Shown: positions 1,400 through 16,023 of the stretch, piece after piece | Layout: every line of letters begins with the position of its first letter | Numbering within the stretch: position 1 is the stretch's first letter | Assembly: GCA_945883785.1 (NCBI GenBank) | Contig: CAMCYD010000011.1 | Coordinates: 1-33,799 of the forward strand | Direction: 5' to 3' | DNA from: Helicobacter pylori PMSS1 | GTDB taxonomy: Bacteria; Campylobacterota; Campylobacteria; Campylobacterales; Arcobacteraceae | Length of the DNA stretch: 33,799 nucleotides | The notes under the pieces: model-generated | The model's database searches: none | Seen by the model: only the letters and a program-made list of their open reading frames with translations | What the model was told of the DNA's origin: nothing | Made by a program: the position numbers and the translations under genes

Positions 1400-1559
1400 G
1401 AGCCACTTGCAAATTCAAAGATTTCGAGTATGAATAGTAGCAATTATTAGCTTTTCACTTTAAAAATCACTATTTACTCCCTGTAAATGGTTATTTTTAA
1501 AGTGAAAAGATGATGATTGAAACTGTTTATAATCATTTGTTTGAATTTGCAAGTGGCTC
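1400..1559. repeat. 160-bp foldback (MITE-like) element, full copy
   Basis: The ends are a perfect 20-bp inverted repeat (GAGCCACTTGCAAATTCAAA at 1400-1419, its complement at 1540-1559). An inner perfect 17-bp pair (1451-1467 with 1493-1509, containing TTTTCACTTTAAAAA) follows, so the whole unit can fold into one long hairpin. It contains no coding frame. The right 65 bases (1495-1559) occur again, base for base, at 15414-15478 beside infC. A non-coding element with long terminal inverted repeats found at more than one locus fits a MITE or a REP-like dispersed palindrome. No direct repeat flanking it is evident. Confidence 0.75.
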
Positions 1560-14175: not shown

Positions 14176-15312
14176 ATGTTAAAAGATAGTGATTTAGTAA
14201 AAATAAACGATATGAAACAATTTGAATCAAATGATTTAGAGGTATTACTACATAAAATATTAAATTATCTCAAGCATATTACTTCTTCAGATGCTGGGAC
14301 AATTTATCTAAAAGAAGACGATTATTTAAAATTCTTCATTTTTCAGAATGACTCATTTTCTTATGAAACGATTTATAAACTACAAGAACCACTCAAAAAC
14401 TTAAGATTTAAAATCGAGCCAAATACACACACTATAGCAGTTGAATGTTTTTCATCTAAAAAAATTCTTACAATTGATGATATTTATAAAGATACATGCT
14501 TTGATTTCAAATCATCTAAAGACTTTGATGATACATTTAATTATAAAACAAAATCTATTTTAACCGCACCACTTGTCAATTTTTTTTCTGGAGAAGTTAT
14601 TGGTGTGGTGCAACTTATAAATAAAAAAGATGACAATGTACTCATAGAGTATCTACAAGATGATATAGAGTTTATTTCACTTAGTAGTCATCTTATCGCA
14701 CTAAGTATAATTACTATGCAACAAAGTCTTAAAGAAAGAGATGAAATGAGTGCGAGCATAGAAAATAGAATTATTTCTAGAACAAAAAAACTTGAAGGTA
14801 TCCAAAAAGAACTTTTACTGCAAGTAAATAGCGACTCAATGACTGGACTTTTTAATCGTAGATATTTTAATGAAATTGGCGGTAGTTTACTCGAGATTGC
14901 AAAAAAAACAAAAACTGAAATGACTATTATAATGCTAGATATAGATAATTTTAAAAATATTAATGATACATATGGACATAGCATTGGAGATGAAGTTATT
15001 TATAATATTGCAACTCTTTTGAAAGAATCAACACGAGATAGCGATATTTGTGTACGATTTGGTGGTGAAGAATTTGTAATAGTGTTACCACATACATCGC
15101 TCGCAAATGGTATCAAAATCGCCGAAAAGATGAGATTACATATTGAACAAAATGTCATTTATACAAATACAAATCAAGAAATTCATTACACAGTGAGTGT
15201 CGGCGTATCAAAAGTGGATGAAAATGATACTACTCTAGAAAATGCACTTAAGAAAGCTGATGCTTTGCTTTATAAAGTAAAAAAGTCTGGAAAAAATAGA
15301 GTTAAATCTTAA
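14176..15312 (+). CDS. GAF-GGDEF diguanylate cyclase
   Basis: 378 residues, no membrane segment. Residues about 20-170 form a GAF sensor domain (DAGTIYLKEDD, TAPLVNFFSGEVIGVVQLINK), followed by a coiled-coil linker (SASIENRIISRTKKLEGIQKE) and a GGDEF domain. The catalytic loop GGEEF is at 296-300, the metal-binding DIDNFKNINDTYGH is present, and an inhibitory site RDSD lies five residues before GGEEF. It should make cyclic di-GMP from two GTP in response to a ligand or redox state sensed by GAF, with product feedback through the RxxD site. It stands alone between divergent xseB and the convergent infC. Confidence 0.93.
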   Translation: MLKDSDLVKINDMKQFESNDLEVLLHKILNYLKHITSSDAGTIYLKEDDYLKFFIFQNDSFSYETIYKLQEPLKNLRFKIEPNTHTIAVECFSSKKILTIDDIYKDTCFDFKSSKDFDDTFNYKTKSILTAPLVNFFSGEVIGVVQLINKKDDNVLIEYLQDDIEFISLSSHLIALSIITMQQSLKERDEMSASIENRIISRTKKLEGIQKELLLQVNSDSMTGLFNRRYFNEIGGSLLEIAKKTKTEMTIIMLDIDNFKNINDTYGHSIGDEVIYNIATLLKESTRDSDICVRFGGEEFVIVLPHTSLANGIKIAEKMRLHIEQNVIYTNTNQEIHYTVSVGVSKVDENDTTLENALKKADALLYKVKKSGKNRVKS

Positions 15313-15413
15313 CAGTTTACTTAAAGAAACCAATACATAATTAAAATAATTTTATAGTGACTTATTCCTTCGATTGTATTAAATGCTGATTTCTTAACTC
15401 TTACAATAAAGAG

Positions 15414-15478
15414 TTTTAAAGTGAAAAGATGATGATTGAAACTGTTTATAATCATTTGTTTGAATTTGCAAGTGGCTC
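15414..15478. repeat. Half copy of the foldback element at 1400-1559
   Basis: 65 bases identical to 1495-1559 of the full element, ending in the same GCAAGTGGCTC terminus. The left arm is missing; the sequence before 15414 shows no match. It lies 14 bases beyond the stop of infC and about 100 bases after the diguanylate cyclase, between convergent genes. Confidence 0.85.
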
Positions 15479-15492
15479 TAAAGAAAGAAATA

Positions 15493-16023
15493 TTATTTCT
15501 TTCTTGGAACTACAAGCATATTTACATATCTACCTTCAAGTTTTGGATCCTGATCTTTTATACCAATATCTTCAAGCATAGGCCAAACATTATTTAAAAC
15601 ATCTTCACCAGCTTTTGGATTTGACATCTCTCTACCCTTAAGGAAAACTCTAAATTTAACATGATTTCCCTCTTCGATAAACTCTCTTGCATGTTTAACT
15701 TTGTAACTTACATCATTCGCTGCAATTTTTACCGAAAGTTTTATCTCTTTTGTGACAATGATTTTTTGATTTTTCTTTGCTTCTTTTTTCTTTTTTTCCA
15801 ATTGATATTTGAATTTGCTATAGTTCATAATTTTTACAACTGGAGGATTTGCAGTAGCCGCAATACACACTAAATCCATTCCTTGATCGTCTGCAAGTTT
15901 TAAAGCTTCTCTTGAACTAATTATCCCATAAGATGTTCCATCATCCCCATTACATCTTACTTCTGGAAATCTTATCTCCTCATTCATCAATGTATCGTCA
16001 GTTTTTTTTGTTTTTAAATTCAA
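15493..16023 (-). CDS. infC: Translation initiation factor IF-3
   Basis: 176 residues covering both IF-3 domains: N-terminal [28 protein letters not shown] and [15 protein letters not shown], then a lysine-rich linker, then [42 protein letters not shown] and the [13 protein letters not shown] end. It binds the 30S subunit and proofreads start codons. The start is TTG at 16023, overlapping the thrS stop by two bases, with AGAGG seven bases upstream; an in-frame stop lies just before it. An inner ATG (codon 13) has no ribosome site and would remove part of the N-terminus. A non-AUG start is a known device for IF-3 self-regulation in E. coli (AUU). Confidence 0.95.

Follow-up and report, generated by a model that had tools for sequence, protein, structure and literature searches.

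An MITE of the insertion sequence (IS) ISMac2 (IS1182 family) from Methanosarcina acetivorans is listed in Table 4 of PMC3852290 as 160 bp long and present in 14 copies, with IR 26 and DR 4. In its treatment of MITEs, the same source describes them as often resembling their partner at the ends only. IS1272/TnSha1, another IS1182-family element, inserts into hairpins without duplicating the target, as characterized in PMC4923244. Palindromic families can reach large numbers, and the copy numbers given for them in PMC10969869 include more than 120 for Correia and 30 to 711 for ERIC. Here we describe a 160-bp hairpin from an Arcobacteraceae genome, located near the start of a 33,799-nucleotide stretch of DNA (the window). 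With high confidence, we read the hairpin as a MITE whose ends are those of an IS1182/IS5-like IS and whose transposase would have been supplied in trans.

Structure and genomic spread of the element

The window copy interrupts another repeat and is flanked by a short target duplication. Its features are the following:

1400-1559, no strand assigned: full 160-bp MITE, a near-perfect palindrome without an open reading frame (ORF) of 80 aa or more across it
1400-1419, plus strand: left terminal inverted repeat, GAGCCACTTGCAAATTCAAA, from the 20-mer match
1540-1559, minus strand: right terminal inverted repeat, the same 20 bases as the left repeat
1396-1399, no strand: target duplication AGTA, left copy, from flank comparison and empty sites with a single AGTA
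1560-1563, no strand: target duplication AGTA, right copy, from flank comparison and empty sites
1377-1399, no strand: left piece of the host repeat (family B) in which the MITE is inserted, from uninterrupted copies in L103, L010, L021 and L039
1564-1833, no strand: right piece of the host repeat (family B), from the uninterrupted copies and family B matches in the same genome

The 20-mer GAGCCACTTGCAAATTCAAA is found in the window at 1400 (+), 1540 (-) and 15459 (-), where 0.02 occurrences are expected. The region 1395-1564 folds as a single hairpin, both as RNA (-84.4 kcal/mol, z -14.9, with 0 of 200 shuffled sequences as good) and as DNA (z -12.8), in agreement with the preliminary description of the full copy as nearly one hairpin. 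The element is thus short, bounded by terminal inverted repeats and devoid of a transposase gene, as MITEs are. An Rfam search returned no family across it. Two promoter-like sites were predicted in 1100-1900, fewer than in shuffled sequence and none within 1400-1559, and the three terminator-like sites of this interval were confined to the host repeat, outside the MITE itself. Neither type of site was found in 15250-15560. A promoter or terminator role of the MITE was rejected because the predicted sites are absent from the element. Family B, the repeat that hosts the MITE (1377-1399 and 1564-1833), is a second dispersed repeat with the core GTCACTGCGAGG...CCTCGCAATGAC and similar outer ends. 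Its pieces have 65 matches in the genome, and it looks like another foldback element.

The host genome (G000; 2.65 Mb in 193 contigs, 97% complete) carries the 15-bp MITE end exactly 107 + 113 times and, with up to one mismatch, 137 + 143 = 280 times; the reversed control pattern had no occurrences. At two ends per element, these numbers correspond to roughly 140 MITE copies and, by arithmetic, to about 0.8% of the genome. Our sample covers part of the genome, namely the surroundings of the best BLAST places and of most ends listed for contigs as far as C54. It comprises 44 full MITE copies plus 61 partial matches, and contig ends of the draft truncate many of the latter. This explains the frequent breaks of the draft: many contigs stop inside MITE copies. 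The contigs of two other Campylobacterales drafts also stop in repeats bearing the MITE end, with 20 of 20 bases in G395 (L250-L257) and with one mismatch in G143 (L258-L259). These end-bearing repeats are probably IS copies.

A DNA search of 104 genomes of the family, scoring 8 candidates per genome, found the MITE interior in the host genome only. The 20-mer end (up to one mismatch) is present in 30 of 398 genomes of the order, with 133 + 134 occurrences in the host genome and 19 + 9 in the next highest. Hence, the host is an outlier in the order for this sequence. No copies were detected on plasmids by blastn, the 20-mer end had no occurrences in viral contigs, and the full-MITE pattern had none in the named genomes, a collection that possibly lacks the host genome.

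The full copies fall into two subfamilies, one younger (25 copies) and one older (19 copies). At the paired stem positions of both, 87 of 95 substitutions break the pair (39 + 48) and 8 keep it. The rarity of compensatory change speaks against a hairpin maintained by selection; the palindrome is the residue of two inverted ends. A structural-RNA reading was rejected for the same paucity of compensatory change and the lack of an Rfam match. In the copies at L024 and L021 (position 791), changes occur in clusters and create or maintain complementarity between the arms, reminiscent of the template-switch correction of a quasi-palindrome. Other repeats were nested in MITE copies. A third repeat, TAGCTATCACAAAGCAAACT...GATGACAATA, sits in the copies of L070, L098 and L110 at three positions, at points containing TA. 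A fourth inverted-repeat element, with GCCTCCAACTAATTA ends, lies within the copy of L069 (approximately 348-501), where the outer TAGA duplication is intact.

Insertion sites and the partial copy at 15.4 kb

Among the 42 full copies with both flanks (of 44 sampled), 26 have an exact 4-bp duplication, versus 1.9 expected when left flanks are cross-matched with the right flanks of other copies. Sixteen have no exact 4-bp duplication, and none has five matching flank bases. The duplication is present in 20 of the 27 copies at least 95% identical to the window copy, compared with 6 of the 15 below 95%. The duplicated bases are AT-rich and mixed, with no fixed motif. Of the 20 insertion sites with 450 bp of flank on either side, 4 are located in ORFs of 100 codons or longer; for random window points, the share is 85%. 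Some IS1182 members are reported to prefer palindromic targets, a preference not seen at the MITE sites: dyad symmetry averaged 5.64 of 16 matches, versus 5.73 after shuffling (25 sites). A palindromic target preference as in IS1272 was therefore rejected.

Empty sites are also preserved in the genome. The family B repeat that hosts the window MITE runs unbroken through the insertion point in four other loci. The junction sequence of L010, L021 and L039 is AAAAAGTAGTATTTC, which contains a single AGTA, whereas that of L103 (AAAAAGCAGTATTTC) has a one-base difference. L021 also carries a second MITE, for which L010 provides an unbroken counterpart of the site (132 of 135 bases, 98%). The element therefore combines many dispersed copies with a fixed-length target duplication and with empty sites. 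Genomes of the same genus matched little of the region around 1000-1395 beyond a tRNA gene.

The partial copy at 15.4 kb has these features:

15414-15478, plus strand: 'half copy', MITE positions 96-160, from sequence comparison
15411-15413, plus strand: GAG, possible remnant of MITE positions 1-3, from the junction bases
15407-15410, no strand: possible target duplication TAAA, left copy, from the flank letters
15479-15482, no strand: possible target duplication TAAA, right copy, from the flank letters

Fourteen bases separate the end of the half copy from infC (15493-16023 on the minus strand, with IF3 domains); the copy faces a GGDEF gene ending at 15312. The preliminary description had noted its identity to 1495-1559 and attributed it to recent movement or gene conversion. 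Indeed, 1495-1559 and 15414-15478 agree exactly over 65 bases, after which the next base differs (T versus G), and composition predicts about 2e-27 such pairs in the window. This identity would favor the derivation of the 15.4-kb copy from the 1.4-kb copy by local duplication or gene conversion. However, the same 65 bases occur exactly in at least 12 other places of the genome (40 of 322 candidates scored), the flanks of the two copies are unrelated, and the candidate TAAA duplication is unlike AGTA. We consider such a local origin extremely unlikely: gene conversion between the two loci is not needed, and the half copy has no special tie to the copy at 1400.

The description of the half copy as retaining one complete end only holds for positions 96-160, but GAG from the other end and a TAAA duplication may have been retained as well. 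TAAAGAG lies directly before the copy and TAAA directly after it; from base composition, a junction with TAAA and the first 3-20 bases of the element would arise by chance with a probability of about 1.2e-4. TAAAGAGTT at this site is also part of AACTCTT...AAGAGTT, a short inverted repeat of possibly native origin rather than a MITE remnant. Most likely, the half copy inserted separately, duplicated TAAA, retained GAG and lost positions 4-95 in place, although the local inverted repeat leaves doubt. An internal deletion of this kind fits it better than a mobile half. Derivatives that are shortened but keep both ends and 4-base duplications were read by eye in L040, L072 and L086 (TTTA) and in L081 (GGTA, with only 10 bases of the left end), and they show that internal deletion is common in the family. 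Against a separate insertion with a TAAA duplication, another half copy (L075) starts within about two bases of the same MITE position, without a clear duplication. An exact empty site on the infC side was not readable in the same-genus genomes because their DNA is too diverged.

A probable partner insertion sequence in related genomes

The ends of the MITE are shared with an autonomous element found in relatives. In one of them (G028, same family), a putative partner IS of approximately 1,493 bp ends in GAGCCACTTGCAAAT, and the genome has 18 matches to its transposase. The transposase (P0001, 389 aa) has DDE_Tnp_1 and DUF772 domains and was matched in 9 of 104 family genomes and at 37 loci of the named genomes, nearly all in Campylobacterota. 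Its best NCBIfam model is IS1182 (E 9.2e-18), followed by IS5 models. The score of 64.4 bits is below the curated cut-off of 270, so we term the partner IS1182/IS5-like rather than assign it to IS1182.

The IS generates duplications of the same length as the MITE: 4 bp are duplicated in 23 of the 36 rows for which both flanks are available (L121 and L205 represent a single element). In L123, L213, L260, L262, L264, L265 and L268, the IS 3' end beside the transposase gene is identical to the MITE 20-mer, whereas the 5' ends readable there share no more than 16 bases with it. At both ends, other IS copies, including those of G028, have at least one mismatch to the 20-mer. The resemblance is limited to the ends (about 20 bp), and the interiors are unrelated. 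Both MITE ends are closer to the 3' end of the IS (the C-terminal side of the transposase) than to the 5' end, which suggests the inverted joining of two 3' ends.

The partner was not detected in the host genome. A tblastn search with its transposase returned no matches there, and the same search matched other genomes. PF01609 was represented in the host by a single remnant, below cut-off. This DDE_Tnp_1 transposase remnant, which has stops, lies on the host contig C131 (L117) and directly adjoins a MITE copy.

These results support the MITE-like foldback proposed in the preliminary description. Its suggested search for more copies across the genome yielded the 280 ends, the transposase with matching terminal repeats was located in relatives, and the empty sites appeared as uninterrupted family B copies elsewhere in the same genome. 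It had named, as evidence against the proposal, the lack of further copies together with the same two copies at the same sites in distant relatives. What we found instead were many copies and, at the infC side, the one of the two sites that allowed a comparison, no MITE in any of 7 same-genus genomes.

Proposed mobilization of the MITE and comparison with known families

We propose that the 20-bp ends serve as the binding and cleavage site of the DDE transposase of an IS1182/IS5-like IS of about 1.5 kb. Acting in trans, the transposase would have inserted the MITE into staggered 4-bp targets, AT-rich and mostly intergenic, leaving the 4-bp duplications. The palindrome probably arose when two IS 3' ends were joined in inverted orientation. 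In this reading, amplification to the present copy number proceeded in at least two waves, represented by the younger and older subfamilies, after which the transposase gene would have been lost, unless it lies outside the present assembly.

The high copy number, the strong hairpin and the mostly intergenic sites would also suit a structural repeat under selection, REP/BIME-like or an RNA hairpin element, with no transposon involved. The 4-bp duplications already refute this as the whole story, and the empty sites, the ends common to an IS, the predominance of pair-breaking substitutions and the absence of an Rfam family leave it a very slim chance. The duplications also speak against REP/REPIN sequences mobilized by a RAYT, a Y1 tyrosine transposase. 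That no cognate transposase was found in the host genome is consistent with mobilization by an unrelated IS family whose transposase accepts these ends. Yet the 20/20 end identity and the equal duplication length shared with IS1182-like elements make such a helper highly unlikely. We regard as quite unlikely an orphan bloom of some 140 copies that outlived its helper and was driven by a non-cognate transposase or kept as intergenic punctuation at gene ends.

Mobilization in trans by the IS1182/IS5-like partner is thus our preferred reading. The analysis documents a large MITE family in the Arcobacteraceae and characterizes its ends, duplication length, subfamilies and empty sites, along with a likely autonomous partner. 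The host genome is well suited to study how a bacterial MITE multiplies far beyond the numbers in relatives when its helper is no longer detectable. We found nothing on this family in the literature listings searched on MITEs or IS1182 in Arcobacter, Epsilonproteobacteria and related genera.

The Correia element has a TA target duplication, which distinguishes it from the present MITE, with its mixed, AT-rich duplications of 4 bp. Correia, ERIC and Chunjie elements probably differ from it in sequence and partner. As portrayed in PMC10969869, all three resemble it in being short, palindromic, mostly intergenic and capable of exceeding 100 copies, and Chunjie MITEs also include many truncated copies. 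Measured against the Correia and ERIC counts given there, about 140 copies is high but not unheard of. The IS1182-family ISs annotated on plasmids of Acinetobacter, Comamonas and Aeromonas (e.g., ISUnCu17-like) are relatives of the partner, whose transposase is 30-34% identical to theirs. Unlike IS1272/TnSha1, as characterized in PMC4923244, the MITE inserts at sites without dyad preference and with a 4-bp duplication. The ISMac2 MITE, as listed in PMC3852290, shares with it the length of 160 bp, DR 4, an IS1182-family or IS1182-like partner and a resemblance at the ends only. However, that MITE has 14 copies in an archaeon and a partner named in that organism, whereas the present one has roughly 140 in a bacterium with no partner detected in the genome. 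The MITE described here is ordinary in kind, but it is a new and large family in its host.
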